A stretch of 64,000 nucleotides of DNA from Wenxinia marina DSM 24838 (GTDB taxonomy: Bacteria > Pseudomonadota > Alphaproteobacteria > Rhodobacterales > Rhodobacteraceae): the NCBI RefSeq assembly GCF_000379485.1, contig NZ_KB902310.1, forward strand, positions 1-64,000. The letters run 5' to 3'. Of the stretch, positions 5,557 through 52,646 are shown in pieces (within the stretch, counting starts at the first letter, position 1; each line of letters begins with the position of its first letter). The notes under the pieces were generated by a model. That model was given only the letters and a program-made list of their open reading frames with translations. It had not been told where the DNA came from and ran no database searches. The translations under genes were made by a program, and so were the position numbers.

Positions 5557-6140
5557 CCGCCAAGCCACATCCAGAGGCCGCCGACGACCGCGCCCACGGT
5601 CGCCACCATCGCCAGCAGCATCACCAGCCCGTCCTTCAGCAGCAGCGCCAGCCCGATCAGCGCGATCGCGGCGAAGGGCAGGGCGGCGGCGAAGGGCAGG
5701 AACTCCAGCGGCGGCACGGCGAGGCAGAGCAGGACGACGGCGCCCCCCGCGACACGCGTCGCGGTCGGCCCGGACAGGACGGTCAGGCGGTTGCCCATGT
5801 GCTCGTCGATCCAGTGCGCCACGCCGCGCATCTTGTCCGCGAAGCCCGACAGCTTGTCGCCGCTGATCTTCCGCTTCTCGAGGAAGCCGGGCATCCAGTA
5901 GCCGTCCCGCCCCATCGCGATCTGCACGGCGAAGAGCAGGATCACGGCCGCGATGATCGTCGGGACCGAGGGGATGCCTGCGACGGGCGAGATGCCGATG
6001 AGCGCGGGCACGATCAGGAACGCCGCCGCGCCGCGGTTGCCGAAGCTGTCCTTCAGCTCGCCGACCTCGGTCTTCCCGCTGTCGCCGGAGGCGTCGTCGA
6101 TGTCGTCGAGGATCTCTTCCGCCGCGCGCTGTTCGGCCAT
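5553..6140 (-). CDS. ExoD-family membrane protein
   Basis: 195 residues matching the exopolysaccharide-synthesis ExoD family. An acidic cytosolic N-terminus (AEEILDDIDDASGDSGKTEVGELKDSFG) is followed by GAAAFLIVPALIGISPVAGIPSVPTIIA, then a basic stretch PGFLEKRKISGDKL and two or three C-terminal helices. In Sinorhizobium exoD affects alkali tolerance and exopolysaccharide; the biochemical function remains unassigned. Convergent with the DMT gene. Confidence 0.85.
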   Translation of the reverse strand: MAEQRAAEEILDDIDDASGDSGKTEVGELKDSFGNRGAAAFLIVPALIGISPVAGIPSVPTIIAAVILLFAVQIAMGRDGYWMPGFLEKRKISGDKLSGFADKMRGVAHWIDEHMGNRLTVLSGPTATRVAGGAVVLLCLAVPPLEFLPFAAALPFAAIALIGLALLLKDGLVMLLAMVATVGAVVGGLWMWLGG

Positions 6141-6194
6141 GATCGCCCTCCCGTCGCTATCGCGGGCAACGGCCGTCCCGGGGCGCTTGTTCCG

Positions 6195-7226
6195 TCAGGC
6201 CCTGCGGCGGGGGTCGATCAGCCGCGACAGCACGCTGTTACGGGTGACCGCGCCGACGACACGTCCGTCCTCGGCCACCGCCACCGGCCAGCCGGTGGCG
6301 TCGAGGCGGGCCATCACCTCGCGGATGTCGGTGTCGGGTCCGACCGGATCGCCGTCCATGTCGTCGCGCACCGGCCCCATCACGTCGCGGGCGCACAGCA
6401 CGCCGAGCGGGTTCATGTGGGCCACGAAGTCGGCCACGTACTCGTTCGCCGGGCCGGTGAAGATCTGCCGCGGGGTGCCGCACTGGACGATCCGCCCGCC
6501 CTCCATGATCGCGATCCGGTTGCCCAGCTTGAACGCCTCGTCGAGGTCGTGGCTGACGAAGACGATGGTGCGGTTCCGCTCGCGTTGCAGCTCCAGCAAC
6601 TCGTCCTGCAGGCGGGTGCGGATCAGCGGGTCGAGCGCGCTGAAGGGTTCGTCCATCAGCAGGATCGGCGCGTCGGTGGCGAAGGCGCGGGCGAGGCCGA
6701 CGCGCTGCTGCATGCCGCCCGACAGTTCGCCCACCAGAGCGTCCGCGCGGTCGGCGAGGCCGACGAGCTTCAGCTCCTCCTCAACCCGCGCGGCGCGTTT
6801 CGCGCGGGACTGCCCGCCCAGCTCCAGCCCCAGGCCGACATTGTCGCGCACGGTCCGCCAGGGCAGCAGGCCGAACTGCTGGAACACCATCGCGACGGTG
6901 CGCAGGCGCAGCCGCCGCAGCGTCGCGAGGTCGGCGTGGGTGACGGAGGTCATCCCGTCCGCGGTCTTCACCCGCACCTCGCCCCGCACCACGGGGTTGA
7001 GGCCGTTCACCGCGCGCAGCAGCGTCGACTTGCCGGACCCGGAGAGGCCCATCAGCACGACGATCTCGCCCTCCTCGACGGTGAGCGAGCAGTCGTGCAC
7101 GCCGAGGATTTGGTCCGTCGCCTTCTGCACCTCGCCCCGCGTCTGGCCGCGGTCCATCAGCGGCAGGGCGCGCTCCGGCTTGCCGCCGAAGACGATGGAG
7201 ACGTTGTCGAACTCGACGGCGGTCAT
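6195..7226 (-). CDS. choV: Choline/betaine ABC transporter ATP-binding protein ChoV
   Basis: 343 residues. Walker A GLSGSGKST is at 60-68, Q-loop FQQFGLLPW, signature LSGGMQQRV near 165-174, and Walker B ILLMDEPFSALDP. A C-terminal CBS-like domain from about 275 (RDVMGPV..., VVGAVTRNSVLSRLI) places it in the ProV/OpuAA/ChoV glycine-betaine/choline class. It drives import by ChoW with ChoX. Start ATG at 7226 overlaps the choW stop as ATGA. Last gene of choX-choW-choV, divergent from the bet genes. Confidence 0.93.
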   Translation of the reverse strand: MTAVEFDNVSIVFGGKPERALPLMDRGQTRGEVQKATDQILGVHDCSLTVEEGEIVVLMGLSGSGKSTLLRAVNGLNPVVRGEVRVKTADGMTSVTHADLATLRRLRLRTVAMVFQQFGLLPWRTVRDNVGLGLELGGQSRAKRAARVEEELKLVGLADRADALVGELSGGMQQRVGLARAFATDAPILLMDEPFSALDPLIRTRLQDELLELQRERNRTIVFVSHDLDEAFKLGNRIAIMEGGRIVQCGTPRQIFTGPANEYVADFVAHMNPLGVLCARDVMGPVRDDMDGDPVGPDTDIREVMARLDATGWPVAVAEDGRVVGAVTRNSVLSRLIDPRRRA

Positions 7227-8260
7227 TTGCGGCTCACCCGCAGCATACGGTCGAGCATGATCGCGACGACGACGATGACGATCCCGCTCTCGAAGCCGAG
7301 GGAGGTGTTGACGCTGTTCAGCGCCCGCACCACCGGCACGCCGAGGCCGCGGGCGCCGACGAGGGCGGCGATCACCACCATCGACAGCGACAGCATGATG
7401 GTCTGGTTGAGGCCGGCCATGATCTGCGGATACGCGCTCGGCAGCTCGACCTTCCACAGCAGCTGCCGCCGGGTCGCGCCGAAGGCCTGCGCCGCCTCGG
7501 TCAGGGCGACGGGGGTGCGGCTGATGCCGAGATGCGTCAGGCGGATCGGCGCGGGCAGGACGAAGATCACCGTCGCGATCATGCCCGGCACCATGCCGAT
7601 GCCGAAGAACACGATCGCCGGGATGAGGTAGACGAAGGTCGGCAGCGTCTGCATCAGGTCGAGGACGGGGGCGAGCCAGGCGTAGACCTTCGGCCGGTGC
7701 GCGGCCCAGATGCCGACCGGAACGCCGATCCCCATGCAGACGAGGCAGGCCGACAGGACCAGCGTCAGGCTCTCCGCCGTCTCGTCCCAGTAGCCCTGGT
7801 CGAGGATGAAGAGGAAGCCGACGAGGACCAGCAGGCAGACCTTCCAGTTGCGCTGCAGCGCCCAGGTCAGCAGCACGAACGCCGCCACGACGACCAGCCG
7901 GTGCGTGTCCTCGTCCCACCAGCCGATCCAGGGCTCGAACCGCCGCCCGCTCAGCCAGTTCTCGCCCGGCGGGCGCATCAGGATGGCGAGGATCACGTCG
8001 ATGATGCTCCGCGTCACGTCGGAGAAGCCGTCGAGGAAGCCGGACGCGCCGTCGCGGATGTATTCGAAGCCGCGGCTGGCCGCGTCGCCGACCGGCAGCT
8101 CCTGGTCCGTGCGGCCGAGGAGGCGGGCGGGGAGCCACTGGACGAACCACAGGATCGCCGGCCCCAGCCAGGCGAGGAAGTCGAGGACGGCCTGCACGCA
8201 CCAGCCGACCGCGTAGAGCAGCGACAGCAGGGCGTCGGCGATGGCGCGGAGAAAGGTCAT
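7223..8260 (-). CDS. choW: Choline ABC transporter permease ChoW
   Basis: 345 residues with an extended N-terminal region of one or two helices and a BPD_transp_1 domain in the C-terminal half. The EAA-type loop reads EAAQAFGATRRQLLWKVELPSA, where it contacts ChoV. LQTLPTFVYLIPAIVFFGIG is the ProW/ChoW-typical pore block. It sits between choX and choV; a strong hairpin lies in the 46-nt gap after choX. Forms the inner-membrane channel for choline import. Confidence 0.93.
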   Translation of the reverse strand: MTFLRAIADALLSLLYAVGWCVQAVLDFLAWLGPAILWFVQWLPARLLGRTDQELPVGDAASRGFEYIRDGASGFLDGFSDVTRSIIDVILAILMRPPGENWLSGRRFEPWIGWWDEDTHRLVVVAAFVLLTWALQRNWKVCLLVLVGFLFILDQGYWDETAESLTLVLSACLVCMGIGVPVGIWAAHRPKVYAWLAPVLDLMQTLPTFVYLIPAIVFFGIGMVPGMIATVIFVLPAPIRLTHLGISRTPVALTEAAQAFGATRRQLLWKVELPSAYPQIMAGLNQTIMLSLSMVVIAALVGARGLGVPVVRALNSVNTSLGFESGIVIVVVAIMLDRMLRVSRK

Positions 8261-8271
8261 TCCGGAGGGAA

Positions 8272-8299
8272 GGGGCAGGGCGGCCGGGCCGCCCCGCCC
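8272..8299 (-). other. Intercistronic hairpin between choX and choW
   Basis: Arms GGGCGGC and GCCGCCC surround CGG, extended by further G:C pairing at both sides (GGGGC / GCCCC class). It has no U-tract. Such a structure after a binding-protein gene commonly protects or attenuates the mRNA so that the binding protein is made in excess over permease and ATPase; that role is an inference here. Confidence 0.5.
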
Positions 8300-8306
8300 G
8301 CGTTCA

Positions 8307-9239
8307 TCACATCGAGATCGCGCTCTCGACCGCCGCGACCGCGTCGCCGCCGTCGAGGGTCGTCACGCCGTCGAGCCAGCCCTTCCAGGCGTCCGGATTC
8401 GCGGCGAGCCACTCGGTCGCGGCCTCCTCGGGGTCCATCCCCTCGTCGAGGATCGCGCCCATGATCTCGTTCTCCATCTGGAGCGAGAAGGTGAGGTTCT
8501 CGAGCAGGGCGCCGACGTTCGGGCACTCCTCGACATAGCCGGCGCGGGTGTTGGTGTAGACCTGCGCGCCGCCGAGGTTGGGGCCGAAGTAGTCGTCGCC
8601 GCCCTCGAGATAAGTCAGCTCGAAGTTGGCGTTCATCGGGTGGGGCTCCCAGCCGAGGAACACGACCGGCTCGTCGCCGCCGCTCGCGCGGTCCACCTGC
8701 GCCAGCATCCCCTGCTCGGAGCTTTCGACCAGTTCGAACTCGCCGAGGCCGAAGGCGTCGGCGTCGATCATGTCGAGGATCAGGCGGTTGCCGTCGTTGC
8801 CCGGCTCGATGCCGTAGATCTCGCCGTTCAGGGCGTCCGCGTTGGCCGCGATGTCCTCGAAGCTGGCGATGCCGAGGGCGGCGCCGGCGGCGTTGGTCGC
8901 CAGCGTGTACTTCGCGCCGTCGAGGTTCATGCCGACCGTATCGACGGTCCCGGCCTCGCGGTAGGGCGCGATGTCGGCCTCCATCGTCGGCATCCAGTTG
9001 CCGAGGAACACGTCCACGTCGCCCTCGGCGAGCGAGGTGTAGGTGACGGGCACCGACAGCACGAGCGTCTCGGTCTCGTAGCCGAGCGCCTCCAGCAGCA
9101 CCGTCGCCGTGGCGGTGGTCGCCGTGATGTCCGTCCAGCCGACGTCCGAGAAGGTGACCTGGTCGCAGGCCTCCTGGGCGGCGACAGCGCCGCCGGCGCA
9201 GGCGAGGGCGAGCGCGGAGAGGGTGGTCCGAAGGGTCAT
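8307..9239 (-). CDS. choX: Choline ABC transporter substrate-binding protein ChoX
   Basis: 310 residues with a Sec signal peptide (cleavage near AVAAQ, about residue 22) and an OpuAC-type binding domain. W35 and D37 in GWTDITA, W82 in GNWMPTM, Y111 in KYTLATN and W198 in FLGWEPHP fall at the spacing of the aromatic box of Sinorhizobium ChoX (its W43/D45/W90/Y119/W205), supporting choline rather than generic betaine binding. It heads choXWV and faces betI across a 105-bp intergenic region that must hold both promoters. Confidence 0.93.
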   Translation of the reverse strand: MTLRTTLSALALACAGGAVAAQEACDQVTFSDVGWTDITATTATATVLLEALGYETETLVLSVPVTYTSLAEGDVDVFLGNWMPTMEADIAPYREAGTVDTVGMNLDGAKYTLATNAAGAALGIASFEDIAANADALNGEIYGIEPGNDGNRLILDMIDADAFGLGEFELVESSEQGMLAQVDRASGGDEPVVFLGWEPHPMNANFELTYLEGGDDYFGPNLGGAQVYTNTRAGYVEECPNVGALLENLTFSLQMENEIMGAILDEGMDPEEAATEWLAANPDAWKGWLDGVTTLDGGDAVAAVESAISM

Positions 9240-9277
9240 CGTGATGTCTCCCTGACTGTTCAACGTCCGGTCATTGA

Positions 9278-9289
9278 TTGACGAGTCAA
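9278..9289. promoter_or_regulatory. Candidate BetI operator TTGAC-GA-GTCAA between choX and betI
   Basis: A 5-bp inverted repeat (TTGAC / GTCAA, 2-bp spacer) lies in an AT-rich island centred in the 105-bp divergent choX-betI region, flanked by further partly symmetric TTGA/TAAA. BetI is a TetR-type repressor that binds such divergent bet promoters and is released by choline. The assignment rests on position and symmetry only. Confidence 0.4.
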
Positions 9290-9344
9290 TAAACGACCGA
9301 TTATTGGTTCGTAAAGCCAACCCGGACATAAGGTCTGATCCCCC

Positions 9345-9917
9345 GTGCCCAAGCTCGGAATGGAGCCTATACGCCGCGCCGCCCTGGTGAAAGCCACGAT
9401 CACCGAGATCGGGGAGCGCGGGTCGCTGGACGTCACCGTCGCGCAGATCGCCCGCCGCGCGGGCATGAGCGCGGCGCTCGCGCACCACTATTTCGGCGGC
9501 AAGGAGGACATCTTCCTCGCCGCGATGCGCCATACGCTCACCGTCTACGGGGCCGAGGTGCGGGGCGCTCTGGCGATGGCGTCCGGGCCGCGCGAGCGGC
9601 TGGAGGCGGTGGTGCGGGCGGGCTTCTCCAGCTCGAACTTCCGGACGGAAACCGTTGCGGCGTGGCTGAATTTCTACGTCCTGGCGCTGACCTCGCCGAC
9701 CGCCGCGCGGCTTCTGAAGATCTATCAGGGCCGGCTGCGGGCGAACCTGCGCCACGCGCTGCGCCCGCTTTCCGCGGAGCCTGCGCCGGTGGCCGAGCGG
9801 ATCGCGGCGCTGATCGACGGTCTCTACCTGCGCGAGGCGCTGGCCCGGCAGACGCCCGACGGCGCCGCCGCCACTGCCCAGGTTCTCGCCGCCCTCGACA
9901 AGGAGCTCTCTTCGTGA
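9345..9917 (+). CDS. betI: Choline-responsive TetR repressor BetI
   Basis: 190 residues starting at GTG. The N-terminus PKLGME.IRR is the conserved BetI beginning, which fixes this start rather than the later ATG. A TetR helix-turn-helix follows (VTVAQIARRAGMSAALAHHYFGGKE, about 27-52), then the BetI-type ligand domain. Its TGA overlaps the GTG of betC (GTGA), so repressor and pathway genes form one operon. Expected to repress both its own operon and choXWV until choline is present. Confidence 0.93.
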   Translation: MPKLGMEPIRRAALVKATITEIGERGSLDVTVAQIARRAGMSAALAHHYFGGKEDIFLAAMRHTLTVYGAEVRGALAMASGPRERLEAVVRAGFSSSNFRTETVAAWLNFYVLALTSPTAARLLKIYQGRLRANLRHALRPLSAEPAPVAERIAALIDGLYLREALARQTPDGAAATAQVLAALDKELSS

Positions 9918-11416
9918 GCCAGCCGAACATCCTCATCCTCATGGTCGACCAACTGAACGGGACGCTGTTCCCGGACGGCCCGGCCGACTGGCTGCACGTG
10001 CCGAACCTGCGCCGCCTCGCCGAACGGTCGGCCCGCTTCGCCCACGCCTACACGCCCTCGCCGCTCTGCGCCCCCGCCCGGGCGGCGGTGATGGCTGGGC
10101 AGATGCCGTTCCGCACCCGCGTCTACGACAACGCGGCGGAGTTCCAGAGCAGCATCCCGACCTTCGCGCACCACCTGAGGAACGTCGGCTATCATACCGT
10201 CCTGTCGGGAAAGATGCACTTCGTCGGCCCCGACCAGCTGCACGGGTTCGAAGAGCGTCTGACGACCGACGTCTACCCCGCCGACTTCGGCTGGACCCCG
10301 GACTGGCGCAAGCCGGGCGAGCGGATCGACTGGTGGTATCACAATTTCGGCTCGGTCACCGGGGCGGGCGTCGCCGAGATCACCAACCAGATGGAGTACG
10401 ACGACGAGGTCGCCTACAACGCGATGGCGAAGCTCTACGACCTGTCGCGCGGCCACGACGGCCGGCCCTGGTGCCTCACCGTCAGCTTCACCCACCCGCA
10501 CGACCCGTTCGTCGCCCGCCGCCGGTTCTGGGACCTCTACGAGGACGGCCCGCTCGACCCCGAGCTGAAGCCGGTGCCCTATGCCGAGCTGGACCCGCAT
10601 TCGCAGCGGCTGATGGACGCCTCCGACCGGCGCAACTTCGACATCACGCTTGAGGACGTCCGCCGCTCGCGCCGCGCGTATTTCGCCAACATCAGCTACA
10701 TCGACGACAAGATCGGCCAGATCCTCGACGTGCTGGAGTCCAGCCGCCAGGAGGCCGCGATCGTCTTCCTGTCCGACCACGGCGAGATGCTGGGCGAGGG
10801 CGGGCAGTGGTTCAAGATGAGCTTCCGCGAGGGATCGTCCCGGGTGCCGTTCATGCTGTGCGCCGACGGCGTCGCGCCCGGGCGGGTGGAGACGCCGGTT
10901 TCCACCGTGGACCTGACGCCGACGCTGGCCGACCTCGCCGGCGCGGACCTCGGCGGCGTCGCGCCCTGGACCGACGGGGTGAGCCTGCTGCCCGTGGCGG
11001 CGGGCGGCGAGCGGAAACCCGTGGCGGTGGAATACGCCGCCGAAGGGTCCATCGCGCCGATGGTCTGCCTGATCGAGGGGCGCTGGAAGTACACCGCCTG
11101 CCCGGCCGATCCCGAGCAGCTGTTCGACCTGGACTCCGACCCGTGGGAGCAGACGAACCTCGCCGGCGAGCCGGGCTACGAGGGCCGGCTCAAGCATTTC
11201 CGCGACATGGCGGCGGAGCGGTGGGATCTGGAGCGTGTGGACGCCGAGGTGCGCCACAGCCAGGCGGGCCGGTGGGTGGTTTACCCGGCGCTCAGGCAGG
11301 GCGGCTACTACCCGTGGGACTGGCAGCCGATCCAGCGCGCGTCCGACCGGTACATGCGCAACCACATGGACCTCAACGTGCTGGAAGAGAACCAGCGCTT
11401 TCCGCGGGGAGAATAG
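9914..11416 (+). CDS. betC: Choline-sulfatase BetC
   Basis: 500 residues hydrolysing choline-O-sulfate to choline and sulfate. The sulfatase signature [12 protein letters not shown] is present; C52 in C-x-P-x-R is the residue converted to formylglycine. The N-terminal metal site is ILMVDQLN, and [13 protein letters not shown] is near 280-290. [12 protein letters not shown] right after the start and a choline-sulfatase C-terminal extension ([15 protein letters not shown]) agree with BetC. GTG start overlaps the betI stop. This gene lets the cell use choline sulfate, an osmolyte of algae and fungi, as source of both betaine and sulfate. Confidence 0.93.
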
Positions 11417-11418
11417 AC

Positions 11419-12879
11419 ATGGCCTTCGACATCCGCCCCGCCGCCAGTCACTTCGTGAACGGCCAGCCGGTCGAGGACGAGGCCGGGACGCCGATCCCGG
11501 TGATCTGCCCGGTCACGGGGGACGAGATCGCCCGCGTCCACGCCGCGACGCCCGCCGTCATCGAGGATGCACTGGCCTCGGCGGAGGCGGCGCAGAAGGA
11601 CTGGGCTGCAATGATGCCGCGCGAGCGCGGGGCCGTGCTGAAGCGCGCCGCCGCGATCATCCGCGAGCGCAACCGGGAACTGTCGGTGCTGGAAAGCCGC
11701 GACACCGGCAAGCCGCTGAGCGAGACGCTGGTGGCCGACGCGACCTCCGGCGCGGACGCGCTGGACTTTTTCGGCGGCCTCGCCGCGACGCTGACGGGAG
11801 AGCACATCCCGCTGGGCGGCGACTGGGCCTACACGATCCGCGAACCGCTCGGCGTCTGCGTCGGCATCGGCGCCTGGAACTACCCGACCCAGATCGCCTG
11901 CTGGAAAGCCGCGCCCGCGCTCGCCTGCGGCAACGCGATGGTCTTCAAGCCGAGCGAGACGACGCCGCTGGGCGCGCTGAAGCTGGCGGAAATCCTGGTG
12001 GAGGCGGGGGCGCCTCCCGGCCTCTTCAACGTCGTGCAGGGCGCGGGCGAGGTCGGCGCGGCGCTGATCGCGGATGCGCGGGTGGCGAAGGTGTCGCTGA
12101 CCGGCTCGGTCCCGACGGGCAAGCGCGTCTACGCCGCCGCCGCGGCCGGCATGAAGCACGTCACGATGGAGCTGGGGGGCAAGTCCCCGATCCTCGTCTT
12201 CGACGACGCGGACGTGGAGAACGCGGTGACGGGCGCGATCCTCGGCAACTTCTACTCCTCGGGGCAGATCTGCTCCAACGGCACCCGCGTCTTCGTGCAG
12301 TCCGGCATCAAGGAGCGGTTCCTGGAGCGGCTGGCGGAGCGGCTGGAGAGCGGCGTCGTCATGGGCGATCCGCTGGACGAGGCGACGAATTACGGGCCCA
12401 TGGTCAGCGAGCGGCAGATGGAGATCGTGCTCGGCTACATCGAGAAAGGCCGCGAGGAGGGCGCGCGCCTGATCGCCGGCGGCGGCCGGGTGGACCGGCC
12501 GGGCTTCTTCGTCGCGCCGACGGTGTTCGCGGATGTCACCGACGACATGACCATCGCGCGGGAGGAGATCTTCGGGCCCGTGCTGTCCGTCCTCGACTTC
12601 GAGGACGAGGCCGACGCGGTCGCCCGCGCCAACGCCACCGAGTTCGGCCTTGCGGCCGGGGTCTACACGTCCGACCTCGCCCGCGGGCACCGGGTGGTCG
12701 CGGCGCTGCGGGCCGGGACCTGCTGGATCAACGCCTACAACCTGACGCCGGTGGAGATGCCGTTCGGCGGGGTGAAATCCTCGGGCGTGGGGCGCGAGAA
12801 CGGGCGCGCGGCGATCGAGCACTATTCGCAGCTGAAGTCGGTCTACGTCGCGATGGGGGCGAGCGATGCGCCGTTCTGA
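11419..12879 (+). CDS. betB: Betaine-aldehyde dehydrogenase BetB
   Basis: 486 residues, normal for the ALDH family. Catalytic C285 is in [13 protein letters not shown] and general base E251 in MELGGKSP. The cofactor region [13 protein letters not shown] and FKPSETTPL is intact. It oxidises betaine aldehyde to glycine betaine with NAD(P)+. It starts three bases after the betC stop. The C-terminus [18 protein letters not shown] is typical of BetB. Followed by a 258-bp gap full of hairpins before betA. Confidence 0.93.
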
Positions 12880-12884
12880 GGGGG

Positions 12885-12930
12885 CGAAATCCGGAGGCGG
12901 ATTTCGGCAGGAGCCGGGTCCGGCTCCTGC
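12885..12930. repeat. Two perfect hairpins after betB
   Basis: The first has 9-bp arms CGAAATCCG / CGGATTTCG around GAGG (12885-12906). The second has 11-bp arms GCAGGAGCCGG / CCGGCTCCTGC around GT (12907-12930). An alternating CGCGCG palindrome follows up to about 12950. They begin six bases after the betB stop and lack a U-tract. Confidence 0.7.
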
Positions 12931-13002
12931 GCGCGCGGTCGCGCGCGGCGCCTTTGGCTCGGGCGGGGTGCATGGGGCGAAGTGCGGGCTGTCTGCTGAG
13001 AG

Positions 13003-13134
13003 GCGGTTCAGGGGCAGGTGTGCCCTGAACGCGCCTGTTCCAGTGTCTTACGATTCGCCGGAGCCTCAAGGATTCCCGGCTGCGCCGGCGCCTTCGGCGT
13101 CCTTGACCCTCCGCCGAATCGCGGAAGGGGGCGC
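13003..13134. repeat. Two-hairpin dispersed element, copy 1 (betB-betA gap)
   Basis: About 132 bp, nearly identical to 30472-30604. It has a left hairpin GTTCAGGG..CCCTGAAC and, after about 20 bp, a larger stem-loop whose 23-bp arms begin CGATTCGCCGGAG.. and end CTCCGCCGAATCG. Its distal end, GGAAGGGG, is the only visible ribosome-binding sequence for betA, seven bases before the ATG. No transposase is encoded. Confidence 0.75.
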
Positions 13135-13137
13135 GTG

Positions 13138-14832
13138 ATGGAAGCTGAGTACATCATCGTCGGCGCGGGCAGCGCGGGATGCGCGATGGCGTTCCGCCTG
13201 GCCGAGGCCGGGCGGTCGGTGATCGTGATCGAATACGGCGGCTCGGACGCGGGGCCGTTCATCGGCATGCCGGGCGCGCTGTCCTACCCGATGAACATGC
13301 CGCGCTACGACTGGGGCTTCAAGACCGAGCCGGAGCCGCACCTGGACGGGCGGCGGCTGGCGACGCCGCGGGGCAAGGTGATCGGCGGCTCGTCCTCGAT
13401 CAACGGCATGGTCTATGTGCGCGGGCACCCGCGCGACTTCGACACCTGGGCGCAGTCCGGGGCGCGGGGCTGGTCCTTCGCGGACGTCGCACCCTACTTC
13501 CGCCGGATGGAGGACTGGCATGCCGGCGTGCATGGCGGCGACCCGGAGTGGCGGGGGCAGGGCGGGCCGCTGAAGGTGACGCGCGGGACGCGGACCAACC
13601 CGCTGACGCGGGCCTTCGTGCAGGCGGGGGTCGAGGCCGGCTACGGCGCGACCGCCGACTACAACGGCGAGCGGCAGGAAGGGTTCGGCGCCAAGGACGC
13701 CACCATCTGGCGCGGCCAGCGGCAGTCGGCGGCGGTGGCCTACCTGCGCCCGGCGCTGCGGTTAGGCAACGCGCGGCTGGTGCGGGCGCTCGCGCGGCGG
13801 GTCGTGTTCGAGGACGGACGGGCCTGCGGGGTCGAGATCGAGCGCGCGGGCCGGGTGGAGGTGATCCGCGCGGCGCGCGAGGTGATCGTCGCGGCCTCGG
13901 CTATCAATTCGCCCAAGCTGCTGATGCTGTCGGGCATCGGGCCGGCCGACGACCTGGCCGAGCACGGGATCGAGGTCCGCGCCGACCGTCCGGGCGTGGG
14001 CGCGAACCTGCAGGATCACCTCGAGATCTACGTCCAGTATTCCTGCCCCGAGCCGGTGAGCCTCTACCGCTACTGGAACCTCGCCGGGAAGGCGTGGGTC
14101 GGCGCGCGCTGGCTGCTGACGCGGACCGGCCCCGGCGCGTCGAACCAGTTCGAGAGCGCGGGCTTCATCCGCAGCGCGGCGGGGGTGGAGTATCCGGACA
14201 TCCAGTTCCACTTCCTGCCCATCGCGGTCCGCTACGACGGCCGGGCGGCGGTGAAGGGGCACGGGTTCCAGATCCATGTGGGGCCGATGCGCTCGCCCAG
14301 CCGGGGGCGGGTCTGGCTGCGCTCGGCCGATCCGGCCGATCCGCCGCGCATCCTGTTCAACTACATGTCCGACCCGAAGGACTGGGCCGACTTCCGCACC
14401 GCGATCCGCCTGACGCGAGAGATCGTGGCGCAGCCGGCCTTCGACCGCTTCCGCGGGACCGAGTTGCTGCCGGGGGCGCACGTCCAGTCGGACGAGGAGC
14501 TGGACGCCGCCATCCGCGAGCATGTCGAAAGCGCGTACCATCCCTGCGGCACCTGCCGGATGGGATCGGCGGACGATCCGGGCGCGGTGGTGGATCCCGA
14601 ATGCCGGGTGATCGGGGTGGAGGGGCTGCGCGTCGCCGACAGCTCGGTCTTCCCGCGGATCACCAACGGCAACCTCAACGCGCCGTCGATCATGGTGGGC
14701 GAGAAGGCGGCCGATCACATCCTCGGCCGGGCGGCGCTGCCGCGGGACGAGCGGGCGCCCTGGGAGGCGCCAAACTGGCGCACCGCGCAGCGGGTCGGCG
14801 ACGGGGCGCGGATGGCGGACGCGGCGGAGTAG
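13138..14832 (+). CDS. betA: Choline dehydrogenase BetA
   Basis: 564-residue GMC flavoprotein that oxidises choline to betaine aldehyde at the membrane. The FAD dinucleotide motif GAGSAG is at 9-14, the GMC blocks [21 protein letters not shown] and [16 protein letters not shown] are present, and the catalytic histidine H468 lies in [11 protein letters not shown]. The start at 13138 is set by the FAD motif; the frame stays open upstream through the repeat, but those codons are not conserved BetA sequence. Last gene of betICBA. Confidence 0.93.
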
Positions 14833-42232: not shown

Positions 42233-43603
42233 TCACCTCTGCCGCCGGTACTCCCGCCGCGACGCCTCGTGGATCGGCCAGGGCTGGACCGTCACGCCGA
42301 TCTCCACCTGCCGGTGCGGCTCCACCGCCGGGCGGGTGCCGCCGCCCTCCGGCTCGCCCCAGACCAGGGTCAGCCGCGTCCCCGGCTCCGCCTGTGCCGC
42401 CTCGACCGTCGCCAGCGACAGCCACGCCCGTTCGTTGGCCGAGTAGGAGGCGGAGGTGGACAGGCCGACCAGCCGGTCGCCGTCCCGGACCTCGTCGTAG
42501 GGGTGCGTGGCGTAATGCGCCGTCGGCCATTCCAGGAACTTCGGCGCCAGCCCGTCGCGCATCGCGCCGCGCACCACCTCCAGCACGCTCTCCTCGTCCC
42601 AGACCAGCGTCACCTTGTGCCGCCTCGGCTGGTCCGCCGCCATCGCCTCCAGCGCGGCGCGGCCGGTGAAGTCGTGGTCGAACTTCATCACCCGGTCGTA
42701 CTCCAGGTCCCACGGCGTCATGTAGTAGTCCGCGATGTCGTCCGACAGGAATGACCCGCCCAGCGAGCACGCCGCCTCGAAGCTGCGGTCGGTCAGCCAG
42801 TCGCGGTAGGCCGCGGTCGACCCGCCTGAATAGACCGCCGGCAAAGGAGAGCTGATCCAGCCCGACTCGGTGTTCGCCGTCGAGTAGGCCCGCCCGCCGG
42901 CCGGCCGCAGGCCGTGGGCGCGGCCGGCCCCCAGCAGCGCCTCGCGCACCGCGGGGCCGTCCTCGGCGGGACCCCAGATCTCCAGCCCCTGCGCCCCGCC
43001 CATGCCGTGGGCGAGCGTCCGCGCGGTGCGGCCGGCGATGGTGATCTCGCCCATGTTGAAGAACTTCGTGACGAGCGGCCCGCCCTCGTTCGCCGCCTCC
43101 AGCACCGCCATCGCGGCGGGGCCCTGCACTTCGAACCGATAGGTCTTCCGCGCCGCGTCCGGCGCGTCCAGCCGCCGCTCGTCCCGCTCCACCGTCACGT
43201 CGTAGTCGCCGGTCTCGGCGTGAAACTGCACCCAGTTCGGCACGCAGGGGCGGCCGACGATGTTGACCGCGTCGTCTTCCAGCCCGAAGAGGATCGCGTC
43301 GCCGACGAGGAAACCGTCCTCGGTGCAGCAGACGATCTGCTTGGCCTTGTTGCGGCCGAAGCCCTTGAAGGAGTTGATCCCCAGATCCGAGATCAGCCGG
43401 ATCGTGTCGGGGCCGGAGACGTAGAGGTCGGTCATGTGCACCGACTGGTCGAACAGCACCGCCGCCTCGCGCCAGGCGCGCACCTCCTCGATCCAGGTGG
43501 AGAACTCGGGCGCGATGGGGAACTGGTAGCGGCCCGTGGGCGCGGTGCGCAGCATCGTCACCGCCGAGGGGTACCCGGCGAGCTTGTCCGACAGGGAGGG
43601 CAT
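42233..43603 (-). CDS. LigM/GcvT-type tetrahydrofolate-dependent demethylase homologue (second copy)
   Basis: 456 residues of the aminomethyltransferase family. Its N-terminus (AVTMLRTAPTGRYQFPIAPEFSTWIEEVRAWREAAVLFDQSVHM) lines up with vanillate/3-O-methylgallate demethylase LigM. GCVT blocks follow (VQGPAAMAVLEAANEGGP, LEIWGPAEDG) and a C-terminal barrel. It is expected to move a methyl group from an O- or N-methylated substrate to tetrahydrofolate. Last gene of a TRAP operon, ten bases after dctM. Clearly different from the copy at 46539. Confidence 0.82.
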   Translation of the reverse strand: MPSLSDKLAGYPSAVTMLRTAPTGRYQFPIAPEFSTWIEEVRAWREAAVLFDQSVHMTDLYVSGPDTIRLISDLGINSFKGFGRNKAKQIVCCTEDGFLVGDAILFGLEDDAVNIVGRPCVPNWVQFHAETGDYDVTVERDERRLDAPDAARKTYRFEVQGPAAMAVLEAANEGGPLVTKFFNMGEITIAGRTARTLAHGMGGAQGLEIWGPAEDGPAVREALLGAGRAHGLRPAGGRAYSTANTESGWISSPLPAVYSGGSTAAYRDWLTDRSFEAACSLGGSFLSDDIADYYMTPWDLEYDRVMKFDHDFTGRAALEAMAADQPRRHKVTLVWDEESVLEVVRGAMRDGLAPKFLEWPTAHYATHPYDEVRDGDRLVGLSTSASYSANERAWLSLATVEAAQAEPGTRLTLVWGEPEGGGTRPAVEPHRQVEIGVTVQPWPIHEASRREYRRQR

Positions 43604-43613
43604 GGGAGGTCTC

Positions 43614-44918
43614 CTATCCGATCATGGAGTTGGGCAGGATCAGCGTGATTGCCGGGAAGGCGACGAGGATCAGCAGCGTCAGCAGCATCGCCAGCCAGAA
43701 CGGCGCGACTCCGCGGAAGATGGTGCCCAGCGGCACCTTCGGCGCGACCGACTTCACGATGAAGACGTTCACCCCCACGGGTGGCGATATCAGCCCCATC
43801 TCCAGCGTCAGCACGACGAGGACGCCGAACCAGATCGGGTCGATGCCCAGCTGCTGCACGATCGGAAAGAAGATCGGCATCGACAGGACGAGCATCGCGA
43901 AGCCTTCGAGGAAGCACCCCATTACGAGGTATGCGGCCAGCATCAGCAGGAGGATGCCGACGGTCGGCAGGTCCAGCCCGGCGAGGAACATCCCCAGCTC
44001 GGTCGGGATGCGGCTGAGCGCGAGGAACGGGATCAGCATGTAGGCGCCGATCAGGATCAGCATGACGGTCGCGGTGGTGACGACCGACGACTTCGTCGCT
44101 TCCCAGAAGGCGCGCAGGCTGAGGGTGCGGCTGATCAGGCCGAGGATGATGACGAAGCCGGCGCCGACCGCCGACGCCTCGACCGGCGAGAAGAAGCCGC
44201 CGTAGATGCCGCCGATGGTCAGCAGGATGATGCCCACGATCGGCGCGGCGCCGAAGATCGCGCGCCGCTTCTCGGCCCAGGTCGTCTCCGGGCCGGCGGG
44301 GCCGAGGGCGGGGTTGAGGCGGCACTGCACCCAGACGGTCAGGCAGAACATCGTCAGGAGCAGCAGGCCCGGCAGCACGCCGGCGAGGAACAGGCGGCCG
44401 ATGCTCTCCTGCGCGAGGATGGCGTAGATGACGAAGCCGGTGGAGGGCGGGATCAGGATGCCGAGCGTGCCGCCCGCGGCGACGACCCCGGTGCTGAGGC
44501 GGGGGTCGTAGCCGAACCGGTCCATCTGCGCGAGGCTGACCTTGCCCATCGTCAGGGCGGAGGCAACGGACGAGCCCGACAGGGCCGCGAAGCCGCCGCA
44601 GCCGATGACGGTCGCCGAGGCAAGGCCGCCGCGGACCCGGCCGATCAGCGCGTAGGCGGCGTCGTAGAGGCGGCGGGACATGCCCGTCTCGGTCGCGACG
44701 TTGCCCATCAGGATGAAGAGCGGCACCACCACCAGCTCGCCCATCGAGGCGAGGGTGAAGCTGTCCGCGGCGAGGTTCGACAGGGCTGCGGCCGGCGAGT
44801 TCAGCAGCGACTGACCGACGAAGCCGACGGCGAACATCGACAGGGCCACCGGCACCCGGAACGCGAGCAGCAGGAACAAGGCCGCCATGCCCCAGAGGCC
44901 GAGCGCGAAGGGGGTCAC
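43614..44918 (-). CDS. dctM: TRAP transporter large permease (DctM)
   Basis: 434 residues, about 12 helices of the DctM family. Signature blocks are GLASATVIGCGGFAALSGSSVASALTMG, GTLGILIPPSTGFVIYAILAQESIG and GLISPPVGVNVFIVKSVA. The GTG at 44918 overlaps the dctQ stop (GTGA). It uses the Na+ gradient to import substrate delivered by DctP. Confidence 0.94.
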   Translation of the reverse strand: MTPFALGLWGMAALFLLLAFRVPVALSMFAVGFVGQSLLNSPAAALSNLAADSFTLASMGELVVVPLFILMGNVATETGMSRRLYDAAYALIGRVRGGLASATVIGCGGFAALSGSSVASALTMGKVSLAQMDRFGYDPRLSTGVVAAGGTLGILIPPSTGFVIYAILAQESIGRLFLAGVLPGLLLLTMFCLTVWVQCRLNPALGPAGPETTWAEKRRAIFGAAPIVGIILLTIGGIYGGFFSPVEASAVGAGFVIILGLISRTLSLRAFWEATKSSVVTTATVMLILIGAYMLIPFLALSRIPTELGMFLAGLDLPTVGILLLMLAAYLVMGCFLEGFAMLVLSMPIFFPIVQQLGIDPIWFGVLVVLTLEMGLISPPVGVNVFIVKSVAPKVPLGTIFRGVAPFWLAMLLTLLILVAFPAITLILPNSMIG

Positions 44919-45433
44919 AGCGGGTCGTCCTCCAGTCCGTGGCGGCCGGGCCAGCCGCGGCCGGCGATGAGAGAGGCGGCGCGGATCAGCATGCCGAGGG
45001 CGGTGATCAGCGACATCACGATGACCGCATACTGGAACCAGGCCTTCGGCAGGCGGATGATGTTCGTCGACAGGTTGAGCATCCGACTGAGGGCCGCGCT
45101 GTCCCACATCGTCCAGGCGATCCCGAGGAACACGGCCGCCCCCAGCAGCGCCGAGAACACGTCGCCGGCCCGGTTCAGCCAGGCGGGGAACGACCGCTCC
45201 AGGATATCGACCGAGATGTGCCCGCCGACGCGGTCGCACAGCGCCATGCCGCCGAACACGATGAGGACGAGCGTCATGGTCGAGAGGTCCTGCGCACCGC
45301 GGAGCGGGGCGCCGAAGTAGCGCCCCGTCACGTCGATCAGGATCACGATCACCTCGACGATGAGCCCGAGCGTGCCGATGAGGGCGGAGAGGGCGATCAG
45401 CCTCTCCGCCACACGGTCGAGCCGTGCGAGCAC
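44915..45433 (-). CDS. dctQ: TRAP transporter small permease (DctQ)
   Basis: 172 residues, four helices, with VIVILIDVTGRYFGAPLRGAQDLSTMTLVLIVFGGMA and GGHISVDILERSFP, the DctQ family pattern. The GTG start at 45433 follows the dctP TAA directly with no spacer. Confidence 0.92.
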   Translation of the reverse strand: MLARLDRVAERLIALSALIGTLGLIVEVIVILIDVTGRYFGAPLRGAQDLSTMTLVLIVFGGMALCDRVGGHISVDILERSFPAWLNRAGDVFSALLGAAVFLGIAWTMWDSAALSRMLNLSTNIIRLPKAWFQYAVIVMSLITALGMLIRAASLIAGRGWPGRHGLEDDPL

Positions 45434-46417
45434 TTACATGCCCTGCATCGTGTCGAGGACCATCTGCCCTTCATCGACCGAACCGACGATCTGCTCGGTC
45501 ACCGGCAGGGTCAGTTCGCCGAAGGCCGCGGCCTCCTCGTCGGACAGGTAGTAGACGTCGTTGTCGCCGGTCGCCTCGAGCGCGTCGAGCGTCTCCAGCG
45601 CGCGGGCGTTCCAGCCTTCCTCGGCGCTCTGCGACAGCGCGCGGCCGGCGATGGAGTCGAGCGCGGTCCGCTCGGCCTCGGGAAGCGCGTTGTACCGCGC
45701 CTCGTTCATCACGAGGTAGAAGCTGATGCGGCCCAGCGGCGCGCCGATGGTGTAGCTGTTCGCCACCTCGTCGAGGCGGAAGTCCGCGACGGCCGAGGCG
45801 CCGGTGACGACGCCGTCGATCAGCCCGGTCTGCAGCGCGTTGTAGATCTCGCCCGCGGGCATCTGCACCGGCGTCGCGCCCAGCGCCTCGATCGTGGCGG
45901 CGGCGGCCGAGCCGGAGACGCGGATCTTCAGGCCCTGCAGGTCCTCGGGCGTGCGGACGTCGATGTCCTTCATGATGAAGATGTTCGGCTCGGACAGCCA
46001 CAGCGCCAGCGGCACGGTGCCCGGGAACTCGTCGGCCAGCTGGCCCGCCTCGTAGGCGTTCCAGATCAGGTCGTAGCCGTTCATCCCCTCGGGCAGGGCG
46101 CCCGGCAGCTCGGACAGCATGGTCCGCGGGAACTGCGAGGAAGTATAGCCCTGCAGGCCCCAGGTGATGTCGGCGACGCCCTGCACGGCGCGGATGTACT
46201 GCTCCAGCGGGCCGGCGCCCAGCTCGCCGCCGGGATAGACCTCGATCTCGAGGCCGGAGCCTTCGACGGCCGCCTGCAGCGGCTCGATCGTGGACGAGGT
46301 GAGGACGTGCTGCGGCGGCACCCAGTGGGCCAGCTTCAGCGTCTCGGCCATCGCGGGGCCGGCCAGAAGGGCGGCAGCGGTCGCGGTCGCCGCCAGGCGG
46401 CGGAGCATCGGTGTCAT
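45434..46417 (-). CDS. dctP: TRAP transporter substrate-binding protein (DctP)
   Basis: 327 residues. The signal peptide ends AGPAMAE, then the DctP fold TLKLAHWVPPQHVLTSSTIEPL, GLKIRVSGSAAAATIEALGATPVQMPAGEIYNALQTGLIDGVVTG, with the conserved Arg of KIRV that salt-bridges a carboxylate in most DctP proteins. The ligand is therefore probably an organic acid. GGGAGGAAATT precedes the ATG. It lies between the two LigM-like genes and belongs to their operon. Confidence 0.92.
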   Translation of the reverse strand: MTPMLRRLAATATAAALLAGPAMAETLKLAHWVPPQHVLTSSTIEPLQAAVEGSGLEIEVYPGGELGAGPLEQYIRAVQGVADITWGLQGYTSSQFPRTMLSELPGALPEGMNGYDLIWNAYEAGQLADEFPGTVPLALWLSEPNIFIMKDIDVRTPEDLQGLKIRVSGSAAAATIEALGATPVQMPAGEIYNALQTGLIDGVVTGASAVADFRLDEVANSYTIGAPLGRISFYLVMNEARYNALPEAERTALDSIAGRALSQSAEEGWNARALETLDALEATGDNDVYYLSDEEAAAFGELTLPVTEQIVGSVDEGQMVLDTMQGM

Positions 46418-46538
46418 GACAATTTCCTCCCGTGGGCGCCCGGTCGTTGCCGGACATTGCTGGTGACGGTAGGCCCCGAAGGGCCTGCCGTTCAATTCAT
46501 TTGTGCGGCCCGGGCCATAAGCCCGGGCTATGGCGACC

Positions 46539-47948
46539 TCAGCGGCGGGTGCGCCAGCTGTCGGCGTAGCTGGTCCGCGCCTCGGCCGCGTAGGGCGTCG
46601 GCGACACGCGCACGCGGATCGTCGTCTGCTCGTGCGGCTCGGTCGAGGTCTTCTTGGTGGTCTCGGGCTCGCCCCACTTCATCGTCAGGACGTCGCCCTC
46701 GTTGACCGAGGTATCGACCACGCCGAGGGACAGCATGCAGCGCTCGTTCCAGGAATAGCCGTTGAACATCGACATGCCGACCATCGTGCCGTCCTCGGTC
46801 TCCACCCGGTCGGCGGAGGACGAGGCGTAGTTCGGCTGCGGGAAGTCGATCCACTTGAACGGCGTGCCCTTCTCGAAGCCGGAGGCGATGACCTTGAGGA
46901 CATCGTCGCGGTTCCACTCGAAGGTGACCTTCTTGCGCTTGGCGCCCTCGGCCTTGATCTTCTCCAGCGCGGCCTTGCCGACGAAGTCGTCCTTCTTCCA
47001 GCCGATGTAGAAGTCGTAGCCCAGCTCGAACGGGTTGACGTAGTAGTCCTCGATGTTCTCGCTGACGTAGGAGCCGCCGATCGCGCCCGCAGCCTCGTAG
47101 CTGTCGGCGCCCAGCCACTGGCGGTAGTCGGCGAGCATGCCGTCGCCGGTGTAGATGCCGGGCAGCGGCGAGGGAATCCAGCCCGATTCCAGCGTGTTGG
47201 TCGAGTAGGCGCGGCTGCCGCACTGGACGAGGTTCACGCCGGCATCCTTGGCCGCCTGCATGATGACGCTGTGGACGTAGTGCTTGTCGGCGTAGGGGCC
47301 CCAGATCTCCAGGCCCGGCGCGCCGGACATGCCGTGGCGCAGCGCCTGCACCTTCTTGGAGCCGACGTTGATCCAGTCGACGTGGAAGAACTTGATGTCC
47401 GGGATCGGGCCGCCGTTCATCTTTTCGAAGATCTTCGGCGCTTCCGGCCCCTGGATCTGGTAGCGGTAGTGCTCGCGCAGGACGCGCTCGCCCTCGGGAC
47501 GGCTGGGGGAGCGGGGGTCGTGGCGGATGCGCACGTTCCACTTGCCCCAGGCGGCGCAGAACATCAGCCAGTTCGACGTCGGCGCGCGGCCGACGAGGAT
47601 GTACTTCTGCTCGCTCTCGCGAAAGATGATGTGGTCGCCGATCACGTGGCCGGCGGGGGTGACGGGCACGAAGTGCTTCGCCCGGTTCAGCTCGAAGTTC
47701 GAGAAGCTGTTGATGCCGTGGTAGCTGAGGAACTCGGTCGCCTGCGGACCCTCGACGATCAGCTCGTCCATGTGGTGCGACTGGTCGAACAGCACCGCGC
47801 TCTCGCGCCAGGCGGCCTGCTCGTTGCGCCAGTTCTGGAATTCGGGCGCCACGACCGGGTACACGTACATCCCGATCTGCGAATTGCGCAGCATCTCGAC
47901 GGTGTTGCCGTGCGCGTCGATCTTGTCCTGAAGGCTTGTGGGGGCCAT
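46539..47948 (-). CDS. LigM/GcvT-type tetrahydrofolate-dependent demethylase homologue (first copy)
   Basis: 469 residues, close to LigM length (about 470). GNTVEMLRNSQIGMYVYPVVAPEFQNWRNEQAAWRESAVLFDQSHHMDELIVEGP matches the LigM N-terminus, followed by INSFSNFELNRAKHFVPVTPAGHVIGD, LRHGMSGAPGLEIWGPY, RAYSTNTLESGWIPSPLPGIY and a C-terminal GCVT barrel. Likely reaction: demethylation of an O-methylated aromatic or other methylated acid with tetrahydrofolate as acceptor. The start is preceded by a perfect palindrome at 47974-47987. First structural gene of the operon. Confidence 0.85.
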   Translation of the reverse strand: MAPTSLQDKIDAHGNTVEMLRNSQIGMYVYPVVAPEFQNWRNEQAAWRESAVLFDQSHHMDELIVEGPQATEFLSYHGINSFSNFELNRAKHFVPVTPAGHVIGDHIIFRESEQKYILVGRAPTSNWLMFCAAWGKWNVRIRHDPRSPSRPEGERVLREHYRYQIQGPEAPKIFEKMNGGPIPDIKFFHVDWINVGSKKVQALRHGMSGAPGLEIWGPYADKHYVHSVIMQAAKDAGVNLVQCGSRAYSTNTLESGWIPSPLPGIYTGDGMLADYRQWLGADSYEAAGAIGGSYVSENIEDYYVNPFELGYDFYIGWKKDDFVGKAALEKIKAEGAKRKKVTFEWNRDDVLKVIASGFEKGTPFKWIDFPQPNYASSSADRVETEDGTMVGMSMFNGYSWNERCMLSLGVVDTSVNEGDVLTMKWGEPETTKKTSTEPHEQTTIRVRVSPTPYAAEARTSYADSWRTRR

Positions 47949-47973
47949 CGCTCGTCGTCTCCTCCCTTGGGGT

Positions 47974-47987
47974 GAATGTATACATTC
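47974..47987. promoter_or_regulatory. Operator palindrome GAATGTATACATTC before the LigM-TRAP operon
   Basis: A perfect 14-bp palindrome lies 26 bases upstream of the ATG at 47948. Its core TGTATACA agrees with the general TnGTnnnACnA recognition pattern of FadR-type GntR regulators, and the 10-bp core ATGTATACAT recurs before the adjacent gntR gene. Confidence 0.65.
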
Positions 47988-48029
47988 ATAGGGCGGGAGG
48001 CGGATTGCGCAAGGCGCAATCGGCAGCCG

Positions 48030-48764
48030 TCAGCCGACGATCATCGCCATGCCCGGCAGCGGCGCGCCGGGCTGCCAGCCGGCGTCCAGCGCCGCCTCGA
48101 GGTTGCCGCGGGCGATCTGCGCATGCTCGCGTGCGATCGCCTCGGCGCGCGTGCCCTCGCGCCCGGCGATCGCGCTCACCAGCGCCCAGTGCTGCGCCTG
48201 CCCGACGATGAGGGAGCGCGCCTCGGTCGCGCGGTCGCCGGTGCGGAACACGAAGGCCGAGGGCGAGGCGAAGGGCAGGGAGCGGACGCGGGCGAGTTCG
48301 CGGGCGATGACGTCGCTGCCTGCGAGGCGGCCCAGCGCCTCGTGGAAGGCGTGGTTCTGTTCGCTGTAGATGCCGAATGTCTGCGCGGTCATGCCGTCGG
48401 CGAACGCGGCGTCGATCCGGGCGAGCCCGTCGCGCAGCCGCGCCAGCTCGTCCTCCGGCGCCCCGCGCTCTGCCGCGCGGCGGGCGGCGGTGCCCTCCAG
48501 CACGCCGCGCAGCTCCACCGCGTCGAGCGCATCGCGCAGGGTGAAGGACCGCACCTCGAATCCGCCGCCGCGGGCGCGGACGAGCAGCCCCTCCTCGGCC
48601 AGCCGCGACATCGCCTCGCGCACCGGCGTGCGCGAGATGGCGAGATCGTCGGCCAGCGCCACCTCCGTCAGCCGGGTGCCTCCCGGCAGCTCGCCGGAGA
48701 CGATGCGCCGGCGCAGCGCGTAGGCCGCGCGCTGGGTCTGGGTGCTGCCGTGGGCGGGGTCCAT
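48030..48764 (-). CDS. GntR-family (FadR/FCD) transcriptional regulator
   Basis: 244 residues. The winged helix QRAAYALRRRIVSGELPGGTRLTEVALADDLAISRTPVREAMSRLAEEGLL is followed by an all-helical FCD ligand domain with the metal-site pattern (E..NHAFHEAL..., H......I......A). It lies directly upstream of the LigM-TRAP genes on the same strand; matching palindromes are in front of both units. Likely a repressor released by the imported substrate or its product. Confidence 0.9.
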   Translation of the reverse strand: MDPAHGSTQTQRAAYALRRRIVSGELPGGTRLTEVALADDLAISRTPVREAMSRLAEEGLLVRARGGGFEVRSFTLRDALDAVELRGVLEGTAARRAAERGAPEDELARLRDGLARIDAAFADGMTAQTFGIYSEQNHAFHEALGRLAGSDVIARELARVRSLPFASPSAFVFRTGDRATEARSLIVGQAQHWALVSAIAGREGTRAEAIAREHAQIARGNLEAALDAGWQPGAPLPGMAMIVG

Positions 48765-48773
48765 GGGGGCAGA

Positions 48774-48783
48774 ATGTATACAT
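48774..48783. promoter_or_regulatory. Operator palindrome ATGTATACAT before gntR
   Basis: A perfect 10-bp palindrome, identical to the core of the 47974-47987 site, lies ten bases upstream of the gntR ATG at 48764. Autoregulation is the simplest reading. Confidence 0.6.

Positions 48784-51371: not shown

Positions 51372-52646
<1,275 letters not shown>

Follow-up and report, generated by a model that had tools for sequence, protein, structure and literature searches.

A predicted operon of Wenxinia marina combining a GntR regulator, a TRAP importer and two LigM-type proteins, probably for methoxylated aromatic acids

Methoxylated aromatic acids from lignin enter coastal waters in quantity, and their tetrahydrofolate-dependent demethylation is best studied in sphingomonads. 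Here we describe a six-gene set of Wenxinia marina DSM 24838 (Rhodobacteraceae), which is located at 42233-48764 on the minus strand of the first 64,000 nucleotides of contig NZ_KB902310.1 (the window) and encodes a GntR regulator, a tripartite ATP-independent periplasmic (TRAP) importer and two LigM-type proteins, LigM-A and LigM-B.

In Sphingobium lignivorans SYK-6, DesA and then LigM convert syringate to gallate, and the genes ligM-metF-ligH are under the MarR-type regulator DesR (PMC6888825, excerpt), while a special 5,10-methylenetetrahydrofolate reductase (MTHFR) oxidises 5-methyl-tetrahydrofolate (PMC12585457). N. aromaticivorans requires desA on syringate; on vanillate, a mutant without ligM grows more slowly and one without both ligM and desA does not grow (PMC8091115, excerpt). 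GntR-type control of vanillate demethylation is known from VanR, which controls vanAB in Caulobacter and Acinetobacter and has vanillate as effector in Caulobacter (PMC6888825, excerpt). Uptake of lignin aromatics by a TRAP system is known from TarPQM of Rhodopseudomonas palustris, where TarP binds hydroxycinnamates with Kd values in the nM range (PMC3610893, excerpt; the excerpt of a 2026 review, PMC13406360, names the same system). In thermophiles, clades of DesA-like proteins of untested function have been noted (PMC9296663, excerpt), and a marine consortium study tabulated a few ligM and desA genes (PMC10269927, excerpt). Our literature search, which covered subscription journals little and is weak evidence of absence, found no title or abstract opening among the papers listed that describes a gntR-ligM-dctPQM unit, and no paper naming LigM together with Rhodobacterales.

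Compared with these systems, the W. marina operon shares with SYK-6 a LigM of the same branch, and many loci of its relatives have an MTHFR-like gene in their flanks. It differs from ligM-metF-ligH in having a GntR-FCD regulator instead of the MarR-type DesR, and a TRAP importer but no metF- or ligH-like gene. By description, not by sequence comparison, the regulator can be likened to VanR and the DctPQM-type importer, proposed here for an aromatic acid, to TarPQM, from which it differs as it is tied to a demethylase. We regard it as quite probable that the six genes provide a GntR-controlled TRAP importer and two folate-dependent O-demethylases for methoxylated aromatic acids, which together would convert a dimethoxylated acid to gallate.

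Layout of the operon and recurrence of its core

All six open reading frames are intact (Table 1). There is no gap between dctP and dctQ, provided that the GTG at 45433 is the dctQ start, dctQ and dctM overlap by 4 bases and ten bases separate dctM from ligM-B. An earlier note, made from the letters of the window, had read these closely spaced genes on one strand as a FadR-type gntR, a full TRAP importer and two LigM/GcvT-type proteins, and the domain and NCBIfam models confirmed this. As the family scores amount to tens to hundreds of bits for each gene, chance similarity is excluded. The importer is complete, as the genes for its solute-binding protein and for its small and its large membrane subunit lie side by side. 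Both LigM-type proteins, which are 42% identical to each other, have a GCV_T domain in a Pfam-type domain search. When the whole genome (4.18 Mb, 41 contigs) was searched with LigM-A, only LigM-A and LigM-B matched and no third LigM-type gene was found at E <= 0.001.

Table 1. Genes of the operon and candidate operator sites (window positions).
Feature	Position	Strand	Evidence or remark
TGTATACA palindrome, candidate operator	48775..48782		upstream of gntR
gntR, FadR-type (FCD) GntR regulator	48030..48764	-	GntR DNA-binding domain 61.5 bits (cut-off 27); FCD ligand domain 59.7 bits (cut-off 24.3)
TGTATACA inside perfect 14-bp palindrome GAATGTATACATTC, candidate operator	47977..47984		upstream of ligM-A
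ligM-A, LigM-branch aryl O-demethylase (vanillate / 3-O-methylgallate type), predicted tetrahydrofolate-dependent	46539..47948	-	model, tree, residues
dctP, TRAP substrate-binding protein	45434..46417 (start approximate, from translation)	-	DctP domain 115 bits; TRAP_S1 75 over 50
dctQ, TRAP small membrane subunit	44915..45433	-	DctQ domain 75 bits
dctM, TRAP large membrane subunit	43614..44918	-	TIGR00786 313.7 bits over 268.5
ligM-B, second aryl-O-demethylase-like protein, clade outside LigM and DesA	42233..43603	-	GCV_T domain, NCBIfam, tree

The gene order was compared in two sets. The first is a family survey of 295 genomes, 43 of which gave LigM-type matches at E <= 1e-100 and 35 of which, the window included, have LigM-A at a threshold of at least 74% identity; the loci of the other 34 were examined. 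The second consists of named loci, the best 80 of 274 relatives found, and the closest of these by LigM-A are Rhodobacterales, e.g., Pseudoroseicyclus and Thetidibacter. The 34 survey loci and the set of 80 come in part from the same genomes, so that the two sets are not independent. In each genome only the top candidates were scored (4, 5 or up to 7, depending on the search), so that second copies may be missed, and the tallies are not corrected for relatedness.

The order gntR-ligM-dctP-dctQ-dctM is contiguous on one strand in 26 of the 35 LigM-A genomes, the window counted. Four have a partial core, namely G159 (contig end), G217 (no dctP called), G162 and G272 (no adjacent gntR), and five another layout (G034, G082, G116, G201 and G256). 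The full order is present in 38 of the 80 named loci; two lack only gntR, seven are interrupted by a contig end and 33 are without contiguous order, a class that includes loci with dctQ or dctM uncalled or cut (e.g., L119, L132, L148, L159 and L171). Directly upstream of ligM-A and on the same strand, gntR is found in 73 named loci.

The six-gene order, in contrast, was seen in the window only, although in L131, L147 and L220 the sequence stops just after dctM, where a sixth gene could not show. The unit that recurs is gntR-ligM-dctPQM, and the term 'self-contained' of the earlier note does not hold for the six genes: five of them form the conserved core, ligM-B was added locally, and the genes for ring cleavage and one-carbon metabolism are found on other contigs. 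The operon looks functional, with known parts in a new, partly local arrangement, which is not a new kind of system because the core is common in relatives.

The importer occurs in two subtypes. The window DctP is 72-82% identical to DctP of G097, G153, G222, G229 and G272 and 52-65% identical to DctP of other genomes with dctP next to ligM-A. LigM-B is present in five of the six genomes with the window's DctP type versus none of the 29 other LigM-A genomes (window counted; Fisher 1.8e-5, relatedness uncorrected, with a type threshold of 70% chosen after seeing the data). This co-occurrence ties LigM-B to the importer type and, perhaps, to its substrate. Two of the 29, G201 and G258, carry proteins of the clade neighbouring that of LigM-B, with 51-52% identity. 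In a sequence search against solved structures, DctP matched many TRAP proteins (85 distinct ones); none among the 60 matches listed was named with a telling ligand, and the papers listed for four of these entries were not relevant.

Placement of LigM-A and LigM-B

LigM-A exceeds the cut-off of the NCBIfam LigM equivalog model (640.9 bits, cut-off 580) and stays below that of the DesA model (558.5, cut-off 800). The LigM model discriminates weakly, as three DesA-model proteins score 607-635 with it. The match alone was therefore rejected as proof of identity and a tree was used for the assignment. From 136 different LigM-type sequences (147 minus 11 identical) a tree of 62 rows was calculated with IQ-TREE, which holds 17 of the 91 close LigM-A sequences (that of the window and 16 random ones) and all 45 others. 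It is midpoint-rooted without an outgroup, two long rows (L208 and L211) meet in it, and the ligM of L182 and L203 was taken by match coordinates. Among its four DesA-model rows three scored over the cut-off, and the unscanned L183 is 98.7% identical to L204.

In this tree the LigM-A clade is the sister group of the clade holding SYK-6 LigM, not nested inside it (support 100/97), and this pair has the four DesA-model rows as its own sister group (99/97). The identity of LigM-A is 55% with SYK-6 LigM and 49% with a DesA-model protein. It keeps the letters of SYK-6 LigM at 16 of 18 checked positions, among others 29, 31, 59, 60, 122, 151, 215, 247 and 256, the exceptions being Q93H and P248S; some of these positions, given in LigM numbering, are substrate or folate residues in the LigM structures. 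Judged from this placement, LigM-A most likely forms protocatechuate from vanillate and gallate from 3-O-methylgallate.

The earlier note had left room for dimethylsulfoniopropionate (DMSP) and betaines. It is true that the DMSP demethylase DmdA has the GCV_T fold too and that TRAP systems import organic acids of many kinds. However, the DmdA model gives only 35.9 bits for LigM-A and 21.1 for LigM-B (cut-off 410), the trimethylamine N-oxide (TMAO) demethylase model 37-55 bits for the two proteins (cut-off 1100), and both are far under the cut-offs of the sarcosine-oxidase models, so that DMSP-, TMAO- and sarcosine-type functions were rejected for both. As LigM-A moreover lies in the LigM branch and the neighbours of its relatives are aromatic-catabolic (see below), a non-aromatic substrate such as DMSP, a betaine or another methylated small acid is highly improbable. 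Placement in a non-demethylating clade, also considered before, was found for neither protein, LigM-B being a member of the same family.

LigM-B remains under both cut-offs (DesA model 565, cut-off 800; LigM model 492, cut-off 580) and belongs to a 13-row clade (support 100/99) apart from LigM and DesA, for which we know of no characterised member. It is 45% identical to SYK-6 LigM and 51% to a DesA-model protein. From LigM it keeps Y29, H60, R122, E215, Y247 and W256 and differs at six of the 18 checked positions (F31, V59, A151, S248, T252 and S258), while the DesA-model proteins have N29, plus Y or F at 59. LigM-B most likely contributes another specificity, for which the step from syringate to 3-O-methylgallate, the role of DesA, is the preferred candidate. 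As LigM-B lies outside the DesA clade and has Y29 instead of N29, this role would have arisen separately.

LigM-B was found with at least 57% identity in 6 of the 295 family genomes. Among 390 genomes searched at the level of the order, six have a match at E <= 1e-150, two of them at only 53%. A LysR gene adjoins ligM-B in all 12 other clade members, near the core or elsewhere, whereas the window copy has no LysR neighbour. In four of the 80 named loci (L105, L115, L118 and L120) and in L216, ligM-B is linked to the core, always behind a divergent LysR gene. A cultured relative with both the core and ligM-B is Pseudoprimorskyibacter insulae. A PcaD-like hydrolase gene, a YCII gene and the LysR gene lie between dctM and ligM-B in L062/L105 (apparently one and the same contig), L115, L120 and L216, and the LysR gene only in L118. 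A ligM-B directly behind dctM of a gntR-ligM-A unit was not seen in the examined sets outside the window. On the simplest reading, the window layout would have arisen by loss of the genes that part dctM from ligM-B in relatives. In L085 the order is dctPQM-ligM-B, preceded by a fused LigB-LigA gene where gntR-ligM-A would stand, and in L084 a LigM-B relative adjoins galD-galC-dioxygenase-galB.

If LigM-A acts on vanillate and 3-O-methylgallate, LigM-B could accept a methoxy-aromatic other than syringate, e.g., another methoxybenzoate, and the two enzymes would not work in series. The separation from DesA and the six deviating positions would fit this, the LysR neighbours of the other clade members suggest a separate inducer, and dicamba demethylases extend the family to other methoxybenzoates (PMC9404685, excerpt). 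Yet the window ligM-B shares an apparent transcription unit with ligM-A, and the relatives in L084 and L085 adjoin gallate-type ring-cleavage genes, and we consider a different substrate possible but rather unlikely.

A still less likely alternative is that the operon serves vanillate only, with LigM-B as a paralogue that is redundant or in decay and was placed behind dctM by loss of separating genes. Such genes are indeed present in the five linked relatives (L062/L105, L115, L118, L120 and L216), and the LigM-B branch is long (0.61 vs. 0.18 in its sister). Nevertheless, the frame is intact with 456 aa, Y247, H60, R122, E215 and W256 are kept, and the genome retains genes of the 4-oxalomesaconate pathway, which are unneeded for vanillate via PcaGH. 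The long branch may reflect faster change after ligM-B joined the operon, or relaxed selection.

Candidate operators and catabolic neighbours

The palindrome TGTATACA occurs twice in the window, compared with 0.01 copies expected in shuffles, and the complete genome has three such sites, compared with one for the reversed control pattern. The third copy, at C7:12092, is flanked by seemingly unrelated genes and probably due to chance. Among the loci with a gntR next to ligM-A, 66 of the 73 named ones and all 31 survey ones carry the palindrome within 160 bases upstream of gntR; at the same distance from ligM-A it precedes this gene in 43 of the 80 named and 8 of the 34 survey loci. For all other genes the counts are 23 of 1149 and 6 of 534, within which the MTHFR-like gene accounts for 9 of 27 and 2 of 10. 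TGTATACA is thus a likely operator of the GntR protein, which would probably repress both the operon and its own gene. No such site precedes ligM-B in the window, so that its transcription would start from the ligM-A promoter. A site-based regulon that reaches the ring-cleavage genes of this genome was rejected, as only three exact palindromes exist and the third is probably chance.

The flanks of the 80 named loci contain aromatic-catabolic and related genes, namely MTHFR-like (27 loci), catechol-2,3-dioxygenase-type (27), PcaD-like hydrolase (20), crotonase (16), CoA ligase (15), galB (15), LigB-type (14), galC (11) and galD (10) genes, and L103 holds nearly the whole aromatic series within one locus. 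In the cultured relative Thetidibacter halocola the dioxygenase gene lies beside the core. Models over their cut-offs are the 4-oxalomesaconate (OMA) tautomerase (537 over 440), the LigK aldolase (391 over 304.5) and a crotonase-family model (376 over 232), whereas the catechol-2,3-dioxygenase-like (304, cut-off 320) and acyl-CoA synthetase (667, cut-off 777) models remain under theirs. Other neighbours were identified as an amidohydrolase, LigA and LigB domains, a YCII protein and a PcaD-like alpha/beta hydrolase, and a PIG-L-domain protein is taken as GalB. A frequent neighbour without a Pfam or NCBIfam match at the limits used matches the solved 5,10-methylenetetrahydrofolate reductase 7xg9 (E 4e-41).

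Across the family survey, 29 of the 35 LigM-A genomes have the dioxygenase vs. 19 of the 260 genomes lacking LigM-A (Fisher p 1e-21), and galD in 30 of 35 vs. 46 of 260 (p 2e-15), both uncorrected for relatedness. In W. marina itself the parts are dispersed, with galB-dioxygenase on C10, galC-galD on C1 and PcaG/PcaH on C5; the LigK, OMA tautomerase, PcaG and PcaH models are over their cut-offs, and the LigB-LigA part of a joined query found no match in this genome. Because the core of the relatives often adjoins such genes, which are dispersed here, the substrates are read as methoxylated aromatic acids (vanillate, 3-O-methylgallate and probably syringate), not as DMSP or betaines. The idea of the earlier note that a methylated organic acid is imported and demethylated is therefore supported by tree, models and neighbours for the methoxy-aromatic class, and the exact substrates are predictions.

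The dioxygenase of C10 (L197, 8719-9684) and its relatives travel with galB, galC and galD and may be type I gallate dioxygenases; of the solved sequences, 9wgj, which carries the label catechol 1,2-dioxygenase, matches it best. On C16 (L199, 8087-10763) an MTHFR-like gene is followed by a HAD-like gene (by translation) and a methyltetrahydrofolate:corrinoid methyltransferase-type gene, a possible route for 5-methyl-tetrahydrofolate. C37 (L200, 3426-11272) has a second TRAP system with CoA ligase, crotonase, MarR and amidohydrolase genes. This we read as a hydroxycinnamate cluster, presumably comparable to the coumarate cluster of R. palustris, although no model says so; a TRAP system beside CoA-ligase/hydratase genes is also a likeness to TarPQM.

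Proposed route and further observations

Based on the observed genes, their family and tree placement, the conserved core, the neighbours in relatives, the downstream genes of the genome and the palindromes, we propose the following route. The GntR protein, probably a repressor, would be released by the imported aromatic acid, which the TRAP transporter is predicted to bring into the cell. LigM-A and LigM-B would transfer methyl groups to tetrahydrofolate, yielding 5-methyl-tetrahydrofolate. With LigM-B acting by preference on syringate to give 3-O-methylgallate and LigM-A turning 3-O-methylgallate into gallate, both enzymes together would lead from syringate to gallate, and LigM-A alone from vanillate to protocatechuate. 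Gallate would be opened by the catechol-2,3-dioxygenase-type enzyme, with a presumed activity on gallate, and proceed via 4-oxalomesaconate to pyruvate and oxaloacetate; protocatechuate would proceed through PcaGH.

Several observations weigh against this route. The importer is replaceable, as 33 of 80 named loci and 9 of 35 genomes (five other and four partial layouts) depart from the full order. In the window no ring-cleavage or one-carbon gene adjoins the enzymes of the module, and the downstream genes elsewhere in the genome have neither an exact TGTATACA nor a strong near-match, so that a shared regulon is not apparent. For LigM-B, the score below the DesA cut-off and Y29 add to the rejection of a tree joining its clade with DesA (p-AU 0.00044), and its long branch means that it could be drifting. 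Finally, of the six family genomes with LigM-B five have LigM-A and five galD, but only two the catechol-2,3-dioxygenase-type gene.

As a more speculative extension, which we put forward tentatively, the LigM-B clade may be a further class of folate-dependent aryl O-demethylase that serves syringate apart from DesA, and the dioxygenase accompanied by galB, galC and galD a glyoxalase-fold (type I) gallate dioxygenase, not one of the LigB kind. If so, LigM-A, LigM-B and the type I dioxygenase would form a syringate route of Rhodobacterales made from other enzymes than that of sphingomonads, and the latter two would be new enzymes for lignin conversion. The common Rhodobacterales unit coupling import and demethylation, with its visible candidate operator and candidate downstream genes, would be a direct genetic means of finding out which organisms import these acids.

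LigM-type genes in other contexts were also noted. On plasmid pAt2 of A. fabrum (L185) one stands with MTHFR and dioxygenase genes and an ABC importer, and annotated CBASS defence genes are a few genes away. A region of a Rhodococcus opacus plasmid (L207) holds two LigM-type genes together with MTHFR, purU, folD-like, LigAB-type dioxygenase, aldolase and PIG-L genes.

In the window, pobA (51477-52646, opposite strand; TIGR02360, 699 bits over 539) indeed lies 2.7 kb from gntR, where the earlier note had taken it as a pointer to the substrate. As such it is weak, because cydB (over its cut-off) and a cydA-like gene lie between and a pobA-like gene is in the fetched flanks of only 3 of the 80 named loci; it was rejected as a guide, and none of these three genes is counted as a member of the unit. 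At about 5553-14832, judged from the first residues of the translations, the window has genes resembling a choline/betaine uptake and oxidation cluster.

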